DNA from: Okeania sp. KiyG1
GTDB taxonomy: Bacteria > Cyanobacteriota > Cyanobacteriia > Cyanobacteriales > Microcoleaceae
Direction of reading: 5' to 3'
Length of the DNA stretch: 42,404 nucleotides
NCBI RefSeq assembly: GCF_014132355.1
Contig: NZ_BLZO01000145.1
Span: 1-42,404 of the forward strand
How positions within the stretch are numbered: the stretch's first letter is position 1; each line of letters starts with the position of its first letter. A program made the position numbers and the translations under genes. This document shows positions 9,698 through 40,076 of this stretch, piece after piece. The notes beneath the pieces are model-generated. The model worked only from the letters and a program-made list of their open reading frames with translations, was not told the DNA's origin and did not search any database.

Positions 9698-9823
9698 TGA
9701 CTCTTAGGGGATTCAACGAATTAACGACCACATATTCGACATTGGAAACACTGTTGGCCAGGTCTTAGGCCATTTTTCCTGGTGTGGGTGGAGTTACATT
9801 TTGGACATATCATGTTCTGGATT
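9698..9823 (-). pseudogene. N-terminal fragment of an IS1-type (InsA-like) transposase
   Basis: From an ATG at about 9823 the minus strand reads [20 protein letters not shown], then [10 protein letters not shown], a stop, and FVESPKS. Two C-x-x-C pairs form the zinc ribbon found at the N-terminus of IS1 InsA proteins. It stops where the tnpB element begins. Its position about 33 bp inside the terminal repeat at 9856 fits an IS1-like element. Confidence 0.7.
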
Positions 9824-9877
9824 CTACAACATTTATCATTACATTTCAGCAACGCCAATTAAACACTGCTTTGTATG

Positions 9878-25612: not shown

Positions 25613-25753
25613 TATGACCAAAGTAGAGGTCAATTGGGAGAAGATTTTAATGATATTTTAAATTGGAAACGGTCAGAAATTTTGCCAGTTATTGGAGTGG
25701 ATGGTTATGATTATATTCCTGAACTTTTGGTGAAATATCAACAGTCTCTTTAG
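25613..25753 (+). pseudogene. C-terminal gene fragment, unidentified
   Basis: The plus strand reads YDQSRGQLGEDFNDILNWKR, then SEILPVIGVDGYDYIPELLV and KYQQSL before a stop. It has the character of a real protein end but no recognisable domain and no start. Remnant of a lost gene is the simplest reading. Confidence 0.4.
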
Positions 25754-25797: not shown

Positions 25798-25860
25798 AGG
25801 GGTTAACGGCCGTTAACCCCTAAAGATGGTGTCTAATTTCACGTTTTGCGTAACTTCTGT
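25798..25860. repeat. Palindrome and degenerate MITE end
   Basis: AGGGGTTAACGG and its exact complement form a 24-bp palindrome (25798-25821). The following GATGGTG and TTTGCGTAACTTCTG match the right half of the MITE at 2072-2164 (GATGGTGCTTAAAAGG, TTTGCGTAAGTCCTG). The left end is not clear. Confidence 0.55.
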
Positions 25861-25934
25861 CTAAATCTAGAATTAAGCCATTTTTCTCAAGTCCTACTTT
25901 AGCTGCGTCAGTTTTGGTCAAGAGCAAGCAAAAC

Positions 25935-26840
25935 TTACTCTGGTTTTGCCCACCCCTTAACAATAGCCATGACAATATTGACGTAGGAGTTATCTAGAGC
26001 TTCTTTGATAGCTGCTTCACCACCAGCTTGTAACGCACAACCAACCCGACGCTTAAAACTAGGTGTAGTTTCATCATTAACATAGATAATTTTTTCACTC
26101 TCAGTCGCAGTAGGGTTAGTTTCCTCCAACTGCTTTAGGAGTTGTTGAATTTCTTTTGCTGCATCAGCTAAAGTCTGCTTTTCCTTAGACTGATATAAAG
26201 TATTGTTATTGTTTTCTGCATGAAAGTTTTTCCCTACAGCAACAGCTTGTTCAACATTGAAAGTATCTCCCATAATTCCCTCTCCTTTTACGTCAACCAA
26301 TAACGGAATGTCTTCATCGTTCTTAAAAAGCTTGACAAATGTCCAACCAAGAAGTTCTGTGTAACCAAAGGAAACAGTGGCATTGACAAGATTTCCAGCA
26401 AAAGGAATAAAACCAAGTATGGCTTTGACTCCAAAAGCACCAATACCAACTCCAACACTGGAGCCAAGTAGTGCTGCTGCTGTACTCTTATTCAGCTTTC
26501 TTCCAAATACTTCTCCTAACTGAATAATCATTCCAATGTGTATAGTTATCAGAACAGGAGTATCTAACCCAAAAGCTGCTCCTTGAGCCAAAGCACCAGA
26601 TGCTGCTGCTGCACTTCCTGAAGCAGTATGAATAATAACTTCAAGTTTTGAAAAGTCCTCGTTCTTTAAAAAAGGTCGTACCTCTTCTTTAATAGGGTCA
26701 GTTTTTTCTTGATAGAATTTGCGTGCTTTTTCTACAGATTCTTCTATAGAAGGCTGCACCTTGTCCTTAATTGTTGGCTCTATTTTTTCCTTGTATAATT
26801 CGCGCCCTTTGTTTATCAATTTCTTCACGTTCATACTCAT
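25935..26840 (-). CDS. Stand-alone membrane-effector module, tandem paralogue of the C-terminus of 27175-29715
   Basis: 301 residues. Residues 8-60 are a charged amphipathic region (GRELYKEKIEPTIKDKVQ, then EESVEKARKFYQEKTDPIKE). Residues about 70-170 are hydrophobic (ASGALAQGAAFGLDTPVLIT, GMIIQLGEVFGRKLNK, GFIPFAGNLVNATVSFGYTE), resembling DUF697-type membrane domains with an alternating Gly-rich pattern. Residues about 220-301 are a helical tail (DAAKEIQQLLKQLEETNPTA, AGGEAAIKEALDNS). It aligns with residues 550-846 of the caspase fusion with very high identity, also at DNA level and into the 3' flank, so it is a tandem duplication. It lacks protease and ATPase. It could be a co-effector, a decoy or an inhibitor. 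Confidence 0.75.
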   Translation of the reverse strand: MSMNVKKLINKGRELYKEKIEPTIKDKVQPSIEESVEKARKFYQEKTDPIKEEVRPFLKNEDFSKLEVIIHTASGSAAAASGALAQGAAFGLDTPVLITIHIGMIIQLGEVFGRKLNKSTAAALLGSSVGVGIGAFGVKAILGFIPFAGNLVNATVSFGYTELLGWTFVKLFKNDEDIPLLVDVKGEGIMGDTFNVEQAVAVGKNFHAENNNNTLYQSKEKQTLADAAKEIQQLLKQLEETNPTATESEKIIYVNDETTPSFKRRVGCALQAGGEAAIKEALDNSYVNIVMAIVKGWAKPE

Positions 26841-27174
26841 AAGAACCTTAGCGTATTACAAAAGTTTTTTGATTGCCAAAGCTAGGGATACCAGGAGCAA
26901 ATTTAACTTATTTGTTGTCTCATCCAAAACCTATGAACTTATGCAAAGAAAAACCTTCCTGATTATGATTCCTAAGCTCGATATATTGATAAGCTAGCCT
27001 GTTTTTTCAGAAGTTTAATCATGGAAAGGAGTTATTATTTGCAAAATGTCCACTTTCAGATTTTTTCATTATGACAACTTTCTATAACCTCCAAGCAATT
27101 GCTGCTATTTTCCGGATAAATAAAATTTCTAATCTCTTTTAGTTGTGTCAGTTTGCGTCAAAAGCAAGTCCTAC

Positions 27175-29715
27175 TTACTCTGGTTTTGCCCACCCCTCAA
27201 AAATGGCTACTACAGTATTGACGTAGGAGTTATCTAGAACTTCTTCGATAGCTGCCTCACCACCAGCTTGTAACGCACCAACAACCCGACCCTTTAAACT
27301 AGGTGTAGTTGCAATATTAACATAAGCAATCTTTTCATCCTCAGTTGCAGTAGGGTTAGTTTCCTCCAACTGCTTTAAGAGTTGTTGAATTTCTTCTGCT
27401 GCTTCGGCTAAACTCTGCTTTTCCTCAAAGTGATAGAACGTATAATTGTTGTCTGAACTGGAGTTTCTCCCCACAGCACCACCTTGTTGTTTAAGTTCTT
27501 TAATGTTGTAAGTATCTCCCATAATTCCCTCTCCTTTTAGAGCAACCAATAACCTACTGTCTTCATCGTTCTTAAAAAGCTTGACAAATGTCCAACCAAG
27601 AAGTTCTGTGTAACCAAAGGAAACAGTGGCATTGACAAGATTTCCAGCAAAAGGAATAAAACCAAGTATAGCTTTAACTCCAAAAGCACCAATACCAACT
27701 CCAACACTAGAGCCAAGTAGTGCTGCGGCTGTATTCTTATTCAGCTTTCTCCCAAATACTTCTCCTAACTGAATAACCATTCCAATGTGTATAGTTATCA
27801 GAACAGGAGTATCTAACCCAAAAGCTGCTCCTTGAGCTAAAGCACCAGAGGCGGCTGCTGCACTTACTGAAGCAGTATGAATAATAGCTTCAAGTTTTGA
27901 AAAGTCCTCGTTCTTTAAAAAAGGTCGTACCTCTTCTTTAATAGGGTCAGTTTTTTCTTGATAGAATTTGCGTGCTTTTTCTACAGATTCTTCTATAGAA
28001 GGCTGCACCTTGTCCTTAATTGTTGGCTCTATTTTTTCCTTGTAGAATTCCCGCCCTTTGTTGATCCAGTTTCCTATTCCTGTAGAGGTCTGTACCTTTT
28101 CCTTGTATTGGTTAACTATATTCTTATTATCTGGTATGGTTCTTCTGTTGGTGCGGCGTAATAAACGGATATATGTAGTTGGTCCTGGCAATTCTCTACA
28201 AATAATACTATCAGAGCCATTTTCTTTTATATATTCCTTAAATATATCAAAACCACGGCCAATTCCTTCAAATGCCAAGTTTAAAAGATAAAACGAAATA
28301 GCTTCATCAACTGGTCTTGATATAGGTGCTATACAATCAATTAGCTGATTCCAGGATAACTCTGGTAAGAATCTACCCGGACTGTAAACTTCAAGTGCTT
28401 CTGGTGTAATACTAACTTTTACTGTTCCTTCTAATTGGTAATCTCTGTGAGCAATAGCATTAGAAATTAGTTCCCGCGCCACTTGAATATCGATTTCTTC
28501 TACTTTATGGCTAAGTCCATCTCCTCCTATGTATGATATACTTTCTGTATATTTTTTGACTTTTTCCACAAGTTGTTTAACTTGGGAACTTAAAGGACCT
28601 CTTATGTCTTCTCTAACAATACTCGATTCTCTGGGTCTTCCAACGATAAAAACAGACCTAGCCTGGGAGTATATCATTTCAGGTCTTTTGTGAAAGCAGA
28701 GGACGGCAGATTTATGAAGTACATTTCTGCCTCCATCTTGAATGCGGGAATAAAGCTTTAGTTTCCATAGGACTTCCTCTAAATTAGCTGTCTTATAAAG
28801 TTCTGGCTCGACTTTATTAGCGTATTTCTCTAGAAGTTCTAAATCTATATCTTCAATAGTAGCTTCTGGGCAAGGATGTCTATTAGGGTCAGTTTGTTCG
28901 TAGAGAATTTTTAGCTCTTCAGGTGTTCTTATAGAATGACTTGATTTAAAATTTACCGGAGTTAAATCTTCCTTCTTTTTCCCTTGAGCAATCCAAATTT
29001 TTTTCTCAGCTCTATCGAGATGAAAAACTGAACGTTGTGGAAACTTTGAGTATTTTTCTTCTGTTTCTAATTTATTATTAATATAACTAACTATATCTTC
29101 AACATAAATTTTTCCATCATTTGTGCCCTTTCCATCAAGACTTGTTTCAATGCCAGTGCAAAAAATATCTGTAAACAGTCCAGACGAACCATCTGGTAGC
29201 TCCTTACTTTTTTGAGTCTTTCGAGAGGAAGCGATAATAGCAATTCCTTGAGGAATATCATCCTTTTTTATAGAGTTAAAAATATTATCGTCTAAATTTT
29301 TATTCCCTTCTACAGCAGCTCCACTATGGCAAGCATCAAGAATAATAATGGCACGTTGAACTCCTGCCATATCTAACTCATTCATTAAATTTTTGAACGG
29401 ATACCACTCTGAATTATCCAACCCCATTTTTAGACAATATTGATTATTTCCTAGAATACCTCCATGTCCTGAAAAGTAGAATACTAACTGAGTTTTGATA
29501 TCCCAATTTTTTAGAATAGACTTCAAAATTTTTTCAAATTGCTCTCTATTTTGACAGTCATGTATTGGTGTAGATCCATTGGCCGGACACATTCCCTGCT
29601 CTGGGTTAGTCAGAATAGAGTAAACTCTTGAAACATCTTGCCTTCCTCCCTTTAGCTCTTCACCAGTTAAAGGATTCAAGACTAAAGCAATTCTTTTTGG
29701 TGAATCTTCTGACAT
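27175..29715 (-). CDS. Caspase-like protease fused to GHKL ATPase-type domain and membrane effector
   Basis: 846 residues, at least four parts. (1) Residues about 5-245: C14 caspase/metacaspase-like p20, with catalytic His84 in YFSGHGG and Cys129 in ILDACHSGA. (2) About 290-525: AlbA_2/RecG-C-like region with GHKL (HATPase_c_4) N-box ARELISNAIAHRDYQLEG and EVYSPGRFL, and the preceding AVLCFHKRPEMIY segment. (3) About 550-605 charged amphipathic helices, then 610-715 a DUF697-like hydrophobic domain (LITIHIGMVIQLGEVFGRKL, AILGFIPFAGNLVNATVSFG). (4) 766-846 a helical cyanobacterial tail (EAAEEIQQLLKQLEETNPTA). An EACC1-like gene lies 6 bp upstream. Fusion of protease, NTPase and membrane module suggests a regulated cell-death or immunity effector; cleavage by the caspase might release the membrane part. 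The domains are seen; the function is inferred. Confidence 0.85.
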   Translation of the reverse strand: MSEDSPKRIALVLNPLTGEELKGGRQDVSRVYSILTNPEQGMCPANGSTPIHDCQNREQFEKILKSILKNWDIKTQLVFYFSGHGGILGNNQYCLKMGLDNSEWYPFKNLMNELDMAGVQRAIIILDACHSGAAVEGNKNLDDNIFNSIKKDDIPQGIAIIASSRKTQKSKELPDGSSGLFTDIFCTGIETSLDGKGTNDGKIYVEDIVSYINNKLETEEKYSKFPQRSVFHLDRAEKKIWIAQGKKKEDLTPVNFKSSHSIRTPEELKILYEQTDPNRHPCPEATIEDIDLELLEKYANKVEPELYKTANLEEVLWKLKLYSRIQDGGRNVLHKSAVLCFHKRPEMIYSQARSVFIVGRPRESSIVREDIRGPLSSQVKQLVEKVKKYTESISYIGGDGLSHKVEEIDIQVARELISNAIAHRDYQLEGTVKVSITPEALEVYSPGRFLPELSWNQLIDCIAPISRPVDEAISFYLLNLAFEGIGRGFDIFKEYIKENGSDSIICRELPGPTTYIRLLRRTNRRTIPDNKNIVNQYKEKVQTSTGIGNWINKGREFYKEKIEPTIKDKVQPSIEESVEKARKFYQEKTDPIKEEVRPFLKNEDFSKLEAIIHTASVSAAAASGALAQGAAFGLDTPVLITIHIGMVIQLGEVFGRKLNKNTAAALLGSSVGVGIGAFGVKAILGFIPFAGNLVNATVSFGYTELLGWTFVKLFKNDEDSRLLVALKGEGIMGDTYNIKELKQQGGAVGRNSSSDNNYTFYHFEEKQSLAEAAEEIQQLLKQLEETNPTATEDEKIAYVNIATTPSLKGRVVGALQAGGEAAIEEVLDNSYVNTVVAIFEGWAKPE

Positions 29716-29721
29716 TAACCT

Positions 29722-30147
29722 TTACCTCTGCTTCAGTATTTGAACTTCAATATATTCATCTTCAACAGAAGGTTGGAGTTGATGCTGATGTATTATTTCT
29801 TGCAGTTCTATAAGCTTTTCTTGCGACAAGTTTTTGAGTAAATGCTTTTCCTTACGAGTCCGAGTATAGACAATAACAAGTAGAGAATACTTCAGTTCTA
29901 ATTCCCCATTCTGTTGTCTTGACTCCCAGTATTGTAAAGTAGTGAAAAAGGTTTGAATACCAGTTAGAGTTAATGAAGCAATGGTTAAACCTATTATTAA
30001 ACCACTATCTCTCATCCCAACTTGAGGCTCTGTTTTTTCAATCTCTACAGATAAGTCACATTCTTTTTCTATAAGATTAGCAAGTTCTTTAAAATAAAAA
30101 GAATCCTCTTCTGTAATATCTCCCTCTAGCTTAATATAAGCTTTCAT
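29722..30147 (-). CDS. EACC1-like (effector-associated constant component) membrane protein
   Basis: 141 residues. The layout matches EACC1: an N-terminal strand-helix unit (MKAYIKLEGDITEEDSFYFK, LIEKECDLSVEIEKTEP), the conserved turn QVGMRDSGL, then one membrane helix IIGLTIASLTLTGIQTFFTT and a W-E-S-R boundary. An extra C-terminal part (about 80-141, helical, IELQEIIHQHQLQP) is unlike the minimal family. EACC1 proteins are known as constant partners of peptidases, often caspase-like or trypsin-like, in predicted NTP-dependent conflict systems. Stop to next start is 6 bp, so it is co-transcribed with the caspase fusion and probably forms a membrane-bound sensor or adaptor for it. Confidence 0.75.
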   Translation of the reverse strand: MKAYIKLEGDITEEDSFYFKELANLIEKECDLSVEIEKTEPQVGMRDSGLIIGLTIASLTLTGIQTFFTTLQYWESRQQNGELELKYSLLVIVYTRTRKEKHLLKNLSQEKLIELQEIIHQHQLQPSVEDEYIEVQILKQR

Positions 30148-30339
30148 AGCAATATTATGTAAAATAAACTTATTCTAGATAAATAATCCTATTATAGAAC
30201 CGTAATAAGAATACTGTCAATATTTGCGAATGCTATCAACAGATTATCAAATATAGTTATACAATACTAGAGCGATCGCTACTCCACAATTAAAGATAAT
30301 TTTTAACGCTAACCTTTTTAATTTCTGACTTTTTTTCCT

Positions 30340-30873
30340 CTACTCATCCACACTAAAACTACAAACATTTTTCAACACAAAACCATTATTTTCATTCACC
30401 AAATCACCCCTACATAACACGGGAAAACGTTCTTGATATGCCCTAATAGCTGTCACATAATCCTGGTCAAATAATCTCAATTTTATCCGTTCCAACCTAT
30501 TCATAACTACTCCCATTAAATCAACTTCTCCACTCAATTTATCTCCTTCCGGAGACCTCATCCTCACAACTAATCCCTGTATCTCCATATTAGGCAAATT
30601 AGTAATTAAGTTTTGCATAATTTCTAACTCAGTTTTATCCTCAAACTTAGCTAAATTTTCCACTAATAAATTTATAGTTATAGGAAAATCAACTACTTCT
30701 CGGTTCAAGGGTAAAACCAGAGTTAAATTAGACAATTTATTGCTCCAAATAATTGCCTCATTTTCAATCTCTCTTAGCTGCTGCCAACCTCGTTTTTCTA
30801 AATAATTAGCTACAACTTCCGGCTGAATATTTTTCAATAAATCAATATCTTTATCTTTAATAATTAAATTCAT
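30340..30873 (-). CDS. Hypothetical protein, 177 aa, upstream of the EACC1-caspase pair
   Basis: Not recognised. It begins with a helix and a sequence like VVANYLEKRGWQQLREIENE, similar in tone to small proteins whose N-terminus forms a YLxxxGW helix, then VLPLNREVVDFPITINLLVE and a strand-rich part with VVRMRSPEGDKLSGEVDLMG. The cysteine pair and tail are LCRGDLVNENNGFVLKNVCS. Soluble, no signal peptide. It lies 190 bp upstream of the EACC1-like gene on the same strand, so it may belong to the same conflict locus, but the gap leaves this open. Confidence 0.65.
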   Translation of the reverse strand: MNLIIKDKDIDLLKNIQPEVVANYLEKRGWQQLREIENEAIIWSNKLSNLTLVLPLNREVVDFPITINLLVENLAKFEDKTELEIMQNLITNLPNMEIQGLVVRMRSPEGDKLSGEVDLMGVVMNRLERIKLRLFDQDYVTAIRAYQERFPVLCRGDLVNENNGFVLKNVCSFSVDE

Positions 30874-30986
30874 AACCCTTCTACAGCATTCGCGATCGCG
30901 GAGCGGAACGGAGTTTTATCGCGCAAGCGTAACGTAGTTTTATCGCAGAGCGGAACGGAGTTCTATCGCTAAAACACTATACTTTT

Positions 30987-32270
30987 TTAGTTGAATAAAT
31001 AGTCATGCGTAGGGGCGAACGAACCCTTATAGTCTTTATAATATCACAAAAATTGTGAGGATGCAGCCGAAAATACTTTGACGCGCTGATTTTTTTTGAG
31101 CTTCACAAAATGAAAATTTTATTAGTTTTCCATTCGGGGGGTAGATAGAAAGATGCGATCACAGGAAAAACCAGCATATCTGCTTATTGAGCTTCACAAA
31201 ATGAAAATATGAAAATATTTCTGGCATTGCTTTTGGGGAAAGTTCCTGAATACTGAATATTTAATTGTCTATTAGTAACGAATCTTAGTTGAATAAAAAG
31301 TCATGCGTAGGGGCGAACGACCCCTTATAGTCTTTATAATATCACAAAAATTGCGACGATGGAACTAAAAATCCTTTGGCGCGCGATTTTTTATGAGCTT
31401 CACAGAATGAAAAAGTTGGTGGCTTTCCATTCAGTAGAGATAGATAGTAAAGATGCGATCGCGGGAAAAAACCAGCATATATTTATTAGAGCTTCACAAA
31501 ATGAAAATATCTTTGGTATTACTTTTGGGGAAAGTTCCTGAATACTGAATATTTAATTGTCTATTAGTAACGAATCTTAGTTGAATAAAAAGTCATGCGT
31601 ATAGACGAACAAACCTTTATAGTCTTTATGATATCACAAAAATTGTGAGTATGGAACTGAAAATCCTTTGACGCGCGATTTTTTTTATGAGCTTCACAGA
31701 ATGAAAGTTTTGGTGTTTTCTACTGAGCAGGGATATATACAAAGATTCGATGATGGGAAAAACTAGCATATATTTATTAGAGCTTCACAAAATGAATATA
31801 TCTCTGGTATTGCTCCTGGAGAAAATTCCTAAATACTCCATCGCTTCTGAGTAAGAAAATTTAGTTGAATAAAAAGTCATGCGTATAGACGAGCGACCCC
31901 TTATAGTCTTTATAATATCACAAAAATTGTGAGAATGGAACCGAAAATCCTTTGACGCGCGATTTTTTTTAGAAGCTTCAGGGAATGAAGGTGTTGGTGG
32001 TTTTCCACTCAGGAAGATAGATGGAAAGATTCGATCACAGGAAAAAACCAGCATATATGTTTATGGAAGCTTCACAAAATTGAAGATATCAAGAAATTCC
32101 TGAATACTTGATCGCCTTTGAGCAAGAAAATTTAGTTGAATAAAAAGTCATGCGTATAGGCGAACAAACCCTTATAGTCTTTATAATATCACAAAAATTG
32201 TGAGGATGGAACCGAAAATCCTTTGACGCGCGATTTTTTTTAGAAGCTTCACAGAATGCAAAAGTTAGCA
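30987..32270. repeat. Tandem array of five ~270-300-bp units
   Basis: Units begin TTAGTTGAATAAA at 30987, 31285, 31577, 31861 and 32132, a spacing that falls from 298 to 271 bp. Every unit has AGTCATGCGTA, TAGTCTTTATAATATCACAA with a TATAAT-like box (TATGAT in the third), the palindrome TCACAAAAATTGTGA, ACGCGC(T)GATTTTTTTT and GAGCTTCACARAATG twice. The last unit is shortened. Several short ORFs cross the units in both strands but differ in frame from unit to unit, so translation is unlikely. Function unknown. Confidence 0.85.
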
Positions 32271-35783: not shown

Positions 35784-37310
35784 TTACCATAATAAATTAG
35801 GCTGTCTTCTGGGAGGATAATTTCTTCTTTCTACTTGGTTTTTATTTGGTCTCCATTCAACAGAGTCTGGCGGTAAACTTCTTTCATTTAGAGCATTTAA
35901 AAAACTGGAAATTTCTGGGTCGTTAGGCTTAAGTTTCAACGCTTGTTGAGCAACTTCTCTAGCTTCTTGATACCGCTCTAAACGATAAAGAACTTCCCCT
36001 TTTCCCAGCCAAGCATCAACAAAATTAGACTTTAATCGAATTGCTCGATCGTAAGCAGCGATCGCTTCTTTATATTCTCGAAAATGTTTTGTTAAAATAT
36101 TTCCTCTCAGATACCAAACTACAAAATCATCTGGCTTGTATCTAATTACTTGATTAAAAGATATTAATGCGTCGTGAGGTCTATCCAAATAAGCTAATAA
36201 GGCACCTTTGTCTCGCCAAGCTAAATAAAAATCTGGTTTAATTTTTACTGTTTTTTTATAGGCATCAATTGCTCTATCATGTCTACCTAAAGCTGATAAT
36301 ACATTTCCTTTTCCATACCAAGCAGGATGAAAATTTTCTCTGATTTTTATTGCACGTTCAAAAGCTATTAATGCTTCTTCAAATCTCTCCAATCTATACA
36401 AATGATTCCCACGATTTGCCCATGCTGCTGCACTAGAAATATCTGTTGTTTCTGGAACTTTTAAATAAGCTTCTATAGAAAAAGCTTCTTTTTCAGTTAG
36501 TTCTGGTGGTGGGAAATTTTCCAACTGAAAATTTAATCTCATATTGAACTTATCTGCTAATTGTAAAAAGGTACTAATGGGAATTCCATAACTAAAACCA
36601 GTACTCACTCTCTCCACTGAATTAGACTTTTCATCATAAATTTTTGTACCTTCAGAAGCACCATGAATTCCAATTAATCTTCCTTGAGTATCTAAAATAG
36701 GTGCGCCACTCAAACCTAACTCAGTAATATTGTTATAAAAAAGTTCATAACCATTAGAAACCGGGTCTTTGATAAAAGCTAATTCATAATCTTGATTAAT
36801 TAATAATCCCGGACTAAATAAAGGTTCTCTTTGGGAAAAAGGTAATCTCGATGCAGGCCAACCAGACACAAAAATATGACGAAATTCAGCTTGATAATCA
36901 TAATCAGCTAAAGTAGCTATTTGATACTTTTTCTGACTCCGAAATTCTAAAAGTGCTAAATCTACTCCTGGTAATTTAATTATTCTTTGATAATCAATTT
37001 TATGTCTTTCTCCATCTTTGGTAATAACTGTATATTCATCTTGGGTTTCTATAACGTGCTTGGCAGTTAAAACATAATAAGTGTCTTTTTTACGAGAAAT
37101 TATTACACCAGAAGCTGGATTTATCGAATCAATTAATACTGTAAATTCTGTGGCAATTTGATTAATTTCATCTGCCATTAAAGCTTTAGCAGTAGGTTGA
37201 ATTAAAAAAATTACTGTAGAAGGAAAAAGTAAGAGAGAGGAACTCAGAAGTAATGGCTGAATTGGGAATAATAAATTCACAAAAGTCCATAGATAATTTT
37301 TAAAGTTCAT
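35784..37310 (-). CDS. Exported trypsin-like serine protease with TPR repeats
   Basis: 508 residues. Residues 1-45 are a hydrophobic leader or anchor. The trypsin-like domain has His85 (LTAKHVIE), Asp117 (PGVDLALLEF) and Ser201 in ITELGLSGAPILD; the usual G-x-S-G-G-P is G-L-S-G-A-P here. From about 285 onward five or six TPRs follow (AWANRGNHLYRLERFEEALI, AWYGKGNVLSALGRHDRAID, and so on), a scaffold for protein contacts. Likely acts in the periplasm or at the surface. The gene start at 37310 is copied several times in the array just upstream (37311-38097). A second trypsin-like gene and a COP23 gene follow further upstream on the same strand. Confidence 0.85.
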   Translation of the reverse strand: MNFKNYLWTFVNLLFPIQPLLLSSSLLLFPSTVIFLIQPTAKALMADEINQIATEFTVLIDSINPASGVIISRKKDTYYVLTAKHVIETQDEYTVITKDGERHKIDYQRIIKLPGVDLALLEFRSQKKYQIATLADYDYQAEFRHIFVSGWPASRLPFSQREPLFSPGLLINQDYELAFIKDPVSNGYELFYNNITELGLSGAPILDTQGRLIGIHGASEGTKIYDEKSNSVERVSTGFSYGIPISTFLQLADKFNMRLNFQLENFPPPELTEKEAFSIEAYLKVPETTDISSAAAWANRGNHLYRLERFEEALIAFERAIKIRENFHPAWYGKGNVLSALGRHDRAIDAYKKTVKIKPDFYLAWRDKGALLAYLDRPHDALISFNQVIRYKPDDFVVWYLRGNILTKHFREYKEAIAAYDRAIRLKSNFVDAWLGKGEVLYRLERYQEAREVAQQALKLKPNDPEISSFLNALNERSLPPDSVEWRPNKNQVERRNYPPRRQPNLLW

Positions 37311-39110: not shown

Positions 39111-40076
39111 TTAAAACTCAGACAACGCCTGATTTTTTCTTCTTCTTTCTGCTATACATGAAGTTGGCAAAATAGGAGGAGAAAATTTCCAATTCACCAC
39201 ATCAATAAAATCAGGAAAAAATAAATAATTGAAAATCTTACTACTAGCAGTTCGATCGACTTTAATAGTTGGTACAGATGCGAACTGGGGAGCTAATTTA
39301 GCCACAGTTTCAATGGGAATAGCAAATGCTAAATGACTCATTTGTTGACGCAAATTAATATTAGGTTGCTCGCCATCACGATACACATAAGGATTCCCCC
39401 ATAAAGGATAAGCGTGCATTCCATTAATACCAATAACTTGCCCGTAAATATTCAGTAGAGGACCACCACTCATTCCCTTTTTAATCAAATTAGTGTAGCC
39501 AACTTGATAACCTTTTTCTAAAGGTTTATCAGACAATATTGACACTTTTCCCCTGGTAAATAAAAACTCTCTATCTTGAGGTTTTTCTAAAATAGGAAAC
39601 CCAGCAGCAAAAATTTTATCCCCTTGAACAAGAGTATGAGAATTTCCTAGAGATGCAACATTGTAGGTAGAATTAGTGCTGCGAAATTGTAATAGAGCTA
39701 AATCATTTCCTTGAAAACCTTCATTTTCTATTTGATTTGCTTCATAGAAATTACCATCTGGAGTTTGAATAAGATAAGATTTATCTTGAGTATCTAAAAC
39801 GTGCTGATTAGTAACAATTGTATAGATTTGCTCTTGCCGTTTTAAAATAATTCCTGAACCCCAACCATTTTCAGAAATAACTTTAACTGTGATTGATTTA
39901 GCTAAACTTTTAAGCTCTTCAATAGTACAAAAATCATTACAGTCAGTACAATTTTGAACTTGTATTTGAGTTTCTGAACTTTTGAAGTTATCAAAATTTT
40001 TAGGAAGTGCTTGTATTGGCAAACAAAATAACCCATTACCAAAACAAACCGTTAATATCAGCGATCGCCAATTCAA
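39111..40076 (-). CDS. Secreted trypsin-like serine protease
   Basis: 321 residues with a signal peptide (MNWRSLILTVCFGNGLFCLP, cleavage likely near QALP). The catalytic triad is complete: His92 (VTNQHVLD), Asp125 (QGNDLALLQF) and Ser203 (KKGMSGGPLLN). A Cys-rich stretch before the domain (QNCTDCNDFCTIEE) may form disulfides. The fold start GWGSGIILKRQEQIYTIVTN is shared with the TPR protease at 35784-37310. It acts in the periplasm or outside the cell; the substrate is unknown. A COP23-domain gene lies about 650 bp upstream on the same strand. Confidence 0.88.
   Translation of the reverse strand: MNWRSLILTVCFGNGLFCLPIQALPKNFDNFKSSETQIQVQNCTDCNDFCTIEELKSLAKSITVKVISENGWGSGIILKRQEQIYTIVTNQHVLDTQDKSYLIQTPDGNFYEANQIENEGFQGNDLALLQFRSTNSTYNVASLGNSHTLVQGDKIFAAGFPILEKPQDREFLFTRGKVSILSDKPLEKGYQVGYTNLIKKGMSGGPLLNIYGQVIGINGMHAYPLWGNPYVYRDGEQPNINLRQQMSHLAFAIPIETVAKLAPQFASVPTIKVDRTASSKIFNYLFFPDFIDVVNWKFSPPILPTSCIAERRRKNQALSEF

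Follow-up and report, generated by a model that had tools for sequence, protein, structure and literature searches.

What two-gene unit is it that joins a small protein to a caspase carrying a GHKL region and a membrane-type end, how did it come to lie where it does, and what might it do? In the window, by which we mean the whole 42,404-nucleotide stretch of DNA analyzed here, a first-pass annotation had described an 846-aa protein with the small gene 6 bp ahead of it, and had divided the large protein into a caspase, a RecG-C-type GHKL region, a DUF697-like module and a helical tail. Both the layout and the anatomy held up: the two ORFs lie on the minus strand, the small gene upstream, with a gap of 6 nt. 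The features are listed below; G, C and L numbers are our handles for genomes, contigs and loci.

27175..29715, minus strand: 846-aa fusion of caspase, GHKL region, hydrophobic module and tail (ORF and domain matches)
29722..30147, minus strand: 141-aa EACC1-like partner (ORF; relatives 3–6 nt ahead of a caspase gene at 9 of 10 places; profile comparison with EACC1)
28981..29715, minus strand: caspase domain, residues 1–245, with His84, Asp127 and Cys129 (Peptidase_C14; residues kept in 10 of 10)
28141..28932, minus strand: RecG-C-type GHKL region, residues about 262–525 (HATPase_c_4 in 6 of 6 homologues at E ≤0.1, one over the cut-off; motifs in 6 of 6)
28069..28167, minus strand: basic linker after GHKL, residues 517–549 (contains the point, 28148–28153, at which DNA similarity to G499 and G559 stops)
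27511..28068, minus strand: DUF697-like hydrophobic module, residues about 550–735 (838 of 932 nt identical to 25935–26840 plus its 3' flank; hydropathy)
27178..27510, minus strand: N/G/Q-rich stretch and helical tail, residues about 736–846 (tail family in 19 genome places; composition)
25935..26840, minus strand: 301-aa stand-alone copy of module and tail (84% protein identity; orthologues in G472:C57 and G559:C147)
27087..30291, no strand: cassette extent absent from the orthologous G472:C57 site, which has 60 bp there
25627..25753, no strand: remnant of a 618-aa TPR gene (its 3' end); the gene lies near the cassette in G559 and G499

Recurrence of the Gene Pair

A two-sequence profile of the small protein, run against 389 genomes sampled from the order, found it at 15 places in 12 genomes. 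A full-length caspase ORF came next at 10 of these places, nine of them with a gap of 3–6 nt; in the tenth pair (G000:C72), a stop codon interrupts the small gene, and 175 nt separate it from the caspase ORF. At the other places we found a partial caspase (G572, at a contig end, and G472:C184) or a small-gene remnant lacking the caspase (G394 and G472:C8), and one place (G548) was doubtful. In phylum samples, 2 of 292 genomes had the small protein; a nine-sequence profile recovered it in 3 of 386. A narrow-pattern scan of genome contigs returned four loci, in Okeania (2), Trichodesmium and Microcystis records. The pair recurs in other genomes; failure to recur was one of the outcomes that the annotation had said would tell against its reading.

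The pair at G559:C89 (L088:573–2195) is flanked by two GTPase-like genes, one of which is weakly DO-GTPase1-like (19.7 bits; cut-off, 27), and farther along lies an ORF that we read as vWA-like.

One Caspase Clade with Many C-terminal Ends

Peptidase_C14 matched the 846-aa protein with 43.7 bits (cut-off, 21.4), and His84, Asp127 and Cys129 are conserved in all 10 aligned sequences, the window included, which confirms a caspase with the catalytic His and Cys first proposed. The Asp two residues before the Cys has a role in the S1 pocket. Compared with the PDB, the caspase profile matched metacaspase-4 at E 7e-5. The model for EACC1-associated caspases, NF047832, scored the window caspase at 69.5 bits (72.2 in the genome search) and did not reach its curated cut-off of 140; 9 of 20 other places in the same genome outscored it, and the window's caspase clade is not singled out by this model.

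We built a midpoint-rooted FastTree tree of 39 domains, consisting of the 10 pair caspases and one caspase from each of 29 of the 37 loci offered; the remaining 8 loci had no match longer than 130 aa, and the G000:C44 gene entered twice. The 10 partner-linked caspases were monophyletic (support, 1.0), apart from both NF047832-type and actinobacterial caspases. GHKL is present in 6 of the 10, and the parts that follow the caspase differ.

Window: GHKL, DUF697-like module and tail
G559:C390 and G499: GHKL and a vWA-like end (Pfam VWA sub-threshold)
G235: GHKL and a Hsp70-like end (our own reading; Pfam gives only FtsA, E 0.03)
G469: GHKL and pentapeptide repeats
G555: GHKL alone
G535: ARC6-IMS (Pfam, 3e-20)
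G000:C72: ARC6-IMS, assigned by similarity
G559:C89: long helical/TM part with an FHA-like terminus (our own reading; no Pfam match)
G507: tail only, without GHKL or membrane module

These data show that the constant unit is the small EACC1-like protein together with the caspase, to which GHKL is added in 6 of 10 members, and that the C-terminal end is exchangeable. The membrane part is one of several exchanged ends and not a fixed component of the system. On a Streptomyces plasmid (L106:2956–5845), a DnaK gene lies about 1 kb downstream of an EACC1-type gene, an arrangement that recalls the Hsp70-like end of G235.

The Small Partner Is Probably a Divergent EACC1-type Protein

Pfam EACC1 (PF19953) gave no match for the window's own 141-aa protein, an outcome that the annotation had named as adverse to its reading; it does not extend to the close relative L089, which scored 20.9 bits (E 3.8e-4; cut-off, 23.6). 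Alignment of the small proteins to EACC1 with hhalign gave a score of 18.3, above all 200 shuffles, yet a probability of only 1.5%, and an HMM built from 11 actinobacterial EACC1s placed only one of nine cyanobacterial sequences above the best shuffle. The EACC1 homology of the window protein is thus drawn from one relative (L089) and from the profile comparison, and by this distant homology the protein appears to be a divergent EACC1-type partner.

Hydropathy of the 141-aa protein peaks at residues 49–68. An AF2 model splits this hydrophobic stretch into a strand (51–56) and a helix (61–79), so that reading the protein as having a single TM helix is uncertain. Of the EACC1 layout with one span that had been proposed, the distant EACC1 homology of the pair was retained, and the TM helix is not plain in the model. 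Small EACC1-like proteins in which no TM segment is obvious occur in other cyanobacterial caspase loci (L025, L027, L028, L029, L032, L033, L034, L036, L041, L054 and L055), and as a set they match actinobacterial EACC1 by profile.

The GHKL Region and the Basic Linker

HATPase_c_4 scored the window protein at 13.6 bits, below its cut-off of 26. The same model was found in all six homologues at E 0.1 or better, with L092 over the cut-off (36.2 bits), and the motifs RE[LMI]ISNAI.HR[DN]Y, [SN]PG.F and [IV]GRGF (N-box, G-box) are kept in 6 of 6 GHKL members. The proposed RecG-C-type GHKL region with its N-box is therefore borne out through the homologues, the window protein itself being sub-threshold. 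A GHKL profile matched PDB entry 3lmm at E 0.004. Most of the plasmid relatives listed for this region are annotated as ATP-binding protein, RNA-binding domain-containing protein or RecG, and the best PADLOC labels on it were argonaute-associated in 6 of 6 members (best E, 1e-16). The linker that follows reads RLLRRTNRR in the window, with [IV]R[LV]LR in 6 of 6; its arginines may just form the final strand of GHKL.

The Membrane-type Module and the Tail Match the Adjacent Gene

The hydrophobic stretch of the 846-aa protein covers residues about 608–701 by hydropathy. For the 301-aa copy, three Pfam matches were sub-threshold (DUF697, E 0.2, 11.8 bits; EcsC, E 6e-4; DUF4112, E 0.013), and DUF697 (PF05128) scored the distant small relative L155 at 27.4 bits against a cut-off of 27.7. 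The module and its relative thus resemble DUF697, as had been suggested, and their scores stay below the PF05128 cut-off; a C terminus devoid of any membrane or DUF697-type match, which would have spoken against the annotation, is not what we saw. At L159, L160 and L161, small DUF697-like genes adjoin genes that, read by eye, are putative STAND-type NTPase genes.

The stand-alone 301-aa gene, which the first-pass annotation had overlooked, lies directly downstream of the fusion gene, and its product is 84% identical to residues 540–846. At the DNA level, the fusion from codon about 550 onward agrees with the adjacent gene in 838 of 932 nt (90%), and the match extends 37 nt beyond both stop codons. 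Protein identity between the two copies is 92% in the module and 72% in the tail. The end of the fusion was probably taken from the adjacent gene. On the simplest history, with its direction inferred, the cassette inserted next to the 301-aa gene and then acquired a copy of that gene as its new end; gene conversion between the two copies is possible.

The tail matches 19 places in its own genome, two of them inside the window. Tail-bearing proteins of this genome include an AbiTii protein (Pfam, 1.4e-37; PADLOC, 1e-38), a HEAT-repeat protein and pentapeptide proteins, and another genome has a tail-bearing protein of Roc-COR type. The tail is a widespread cyanobacterial C terminus, once fused to AbiTii. 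At L003:1483–2529 (G000:C105), the AbiTii protein carries the tail at its C terminus, and a tail-bearing HEAT-repeat protein is encoded on the same contig. The 45 residues ahead of the tail are rich in N, G and Q (32% N+G+Q versus 17% in the remainder of the same proteins; 31 sequences, excluding 2 lacking the anchor motif and identical leads). By its composition, which is the property measured, this lead recalls amyloid signaling motifs.

Empty, Broken and Differently Ended Versions of the Region

In G472, a genome of the same genus, the sequences corresponding to window positions 25860–27086 and 30292–31499 align only 60 bp apart, versus 3205 bp in the window. Collinearity continues beyond the cassette, with matches of 82–96% and repeats between them, out to window positions 25627 and 37311. 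G472 has an empty site for the two-gene cassette, with collinear flanks, and orthologues of the 301-aa gene stand alone there (C57) and in G559:C147.

Cassettes are present in G499 and G559 on contigs sharing the window's SdrD-like flanking gene. DNA similarity across the small gene, caspase and GHKL is 88% to G499 and 80% to G559; it stops at 28148–28153, codon about 522 at the end of GHKL, where a vWA-like end follows in the relatives. Beside the same neighbors, G394 has only a small-gene remnant left. The order of flanking pieces in G499 differs from that in the window, indicating repeated rearrangement of the region. In G499, L087:3277–6229 contains six copies of the 3'-terminal part of the 618-aa TPR gene, which points to local duplication; one more copy lies at 9725–9863.

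Upstream of the cassette, a 177-aa gene (30340–30873) matches the first and last parts of the PADLOC PDC-M02B models, which are about 380 aa long, and looks as though it lacked about 200 internal residues; its relative in G499 is fused to the same tail domain. Two trypsin-like peptidase genes also lie near the cassette, at 35784–37310 (with TPR repeats) and 39111–40076. The flanking genes of the window that were scanned with Pfam are mostly ordinary-looking, and viral and defense-island tests gave nothing positive other than the PDC-M02B-like neighbor.

Selection on the Parts of the Cassette

Pairwise dN/dS was calculated by the Nei-Gojobori method (own script) for the window against G499 and G559. 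Values were 0.34 and 0.32, respectively, for the caspase, 0.40 and 0.37 for GHKL and 0.84 and 0.57 for the small partner; the vWA-like end gave 0.64 between G499 and G559, and the fused and stand-alone copies gave 0.47 in the module and 0.71 in the tail. Between the window and G559, dS was 0.75 in the caspase versus 0.33 in GHKL, compared with 0.22 and 0.25 between the window and G499. The contrast in the window/G559 pair suggests a mosaic.

Proposed Function and Alternatives

We lean, by a modest balance of probability, toward reading the pair as a mobile cyanobacterial conflict cassette of two genes, EACC1-type and caspase, with its function inferred; by its sequence, it looks like a cell-suicide or anti-invader device. 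The EACC1-like protein and GHKL would keep the caspase off and sense or relay a state of invasion or stress. Once freed, the caspase, for which a basic P1 would be expected, might cleave either its own chain, in the Arg/Lys-rich linker that follows GHKL, or partners; Arg-P1 specificity has been described, from modeling, for a cyanobacterial orthocaspase (PMC8283722). Cleavage would release or unmask the C-terminal part to act at the membrane, the tail could dock other tail-bearing proteins, one of them an AbiTii fusion in this genome, and the cell in the filament would die or arrest.

This reading draws on the full-length caspase that comes after the small protein at 10 of 15 places, mostly with a 3–6-nt gap; on a single, fully supported clade bearing many different ends; and on the empty site in G472, the relatives with a vWA-like end whose similarity ends at codon about 522 and the module copied from the adjacent gene (838/932 nt). 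It also draws on the conservation of the catalytic residues (10/10) and GHKL motifs (6/6), dN/dS values of 0.32–0.40 in the caspase and GHKL and 0.57–0.84 in the partner, the fusion of the tail to AbiTii and the publication of the same two-gene design as a predicted conflict system (PMC7159879). Against it we count the lack of an EACC1 match in the window protein, the one of nine sequences above shuffle and the hhalign probability of 1.5%; the failure of NF047832 to single out the caspase and of AF2 to give a clear TM helix in the partner; and the linker arginines that are possibly a GHKL strand, the argonaute-associated PADLOC labels and the defense tests that were negative beyond the PDC-M02B-like neighbor.

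The caspase could instead be the executioner, with the tail and hydrophobic module only recruiting the protease to membranes or to tail-bearing proteins, which are then cut, and no release of the module. The tail is a C terminus common to many proteins of the genome, G507 combines caspase and tail with neither membrane module nor GHKL, and G555 stops after GHKL, all of which suit recruitment; most other ends (vWA-like, Hsp70-like, pentapeptide and ARC6-IMS) have no visible common addressing signal, which is not a strong objection. We regard recruitment as a serious but minority possibility. A protease of membrane stress or turnover, with no role in immunity and with ends that vary as different housekeeping inputs, would fit the lack of a defense-island signal and the mostly ordinary-looking flanking genes scanned. 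For such a protease, the sparse spread (12 of 389 genomes), the empty, remnant and occupied versions, the fast-changing ends and the fast partner would be unusual, and we consider it distinctly unlikely. It is more improbable still that the end found in the window arose by accident, as a useless read-in of a duplicated neighbor gene: the copy does continue for 37 nt beyond the stop codon, as a segmental duplication would, and in the surveys made this end was seen only in this genome, but the fused copy has stayed open for ∼300 codons, its dN/dS against its sister is 0.47 (module) and 0.71 (tail), and a tail-ended caspase of the same clade stands at another site (G507).

Within the conflict-cassette reading, we advance more tentatively, as an idea that is rather unlikely in full, that the GHKL ATP-clamp may be a general gating platform (caspase-GHKL-X), an undescribed ATP-gated suicidal protease whose effectors would be captured from the gene beside the insertion site. 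Here, the N/G/Q-rich, perhaps amyloid-like lead and the adaptor tail would tie the protease to tail-bearing proteins genome-wide, the AbiTii fusion included. If GHKL gates the caspase, it would be another NTP-dependent bacterial cell-death trigger beside STAND, MoxR and GTPase switches, and the shared tail would serve as an adaptor between the system and an abortive-infection protein. The lineage offers a natural experiment, in which one region in related species has the cassette absent, broken or with different ends, and which makes the constant part (partner, caspase and GHKL) separable from the effector. It also gives a DNA-level example of how such systems acquire an effector, in this case from the gene next door.

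Comparison with Known Systems

The nearest published design is the EACC1-caspase system (Kaur 2020, PMC7159879), in which, as the main text presents it, EACC1 and caspase are constant and up to 50 C-terminal domains alternate; its conflict role is a prediction in that paper as well. Both systems have a small 5' gene, in ours probably of EACC1 type, and a 3' gene whose caspase is N-terminal and whose C terminus varies, in a tight operon, and both are sporadic in multicellular bacteria. The published system is described there as prevalent among actinobacteria, with sporadic occurrence in proteobacteria, whereas ours is cyanobacterial with a very divergent partner, whose TM helix is uncertain in comparison with the published one. 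A GHKL region between caspase and end, present here, goes unmentioned in the main text of that paper. No experimental test of EACC1-caspase systems was found in the literature searched, and to our knowledge they are predictions so far. The first-pass annotation knew of no described system with exactly this fusion order; the order (caspase-GHKL-module-tail) was indeed not found in the main texts of the literature searched, but the general EACC1-caspase design is published.

NF047832-type caspases belong to the same peptidase superfamily, and the window caspase reaches half of that model's cut-off; in the tree, our clade is separate from these and from the actinobacterial caspases. RecG-C/HATPase_c_4 ATP-binding proteins, often with AlbA_2, share the GHKL region and lead-in, whereas here a caspase occupies the N-terminal side and AlbA_2 had no match in the window protein. 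BELL-BASS amyloid signaling pairs (PMC7889193) are alike in combining an effector-like module that is hydrophobic with N/G/Q-rich sequence within a shared C-terminal region, a likeness of composition; unlike them, the present pair has a helical domain after the N/G/Q stretch and no NLR gene.

New here is a cyanobacterial EACC1-caspase lineage of putative mechanism that has GHKL and whose effector end, in the window, is a copy of part of a neighbor gene. New as well are the empty site in a same-genus genome, the vWA-like ends at a locus with the same flanking gene, the neighbor-derived module and the widespread tail.
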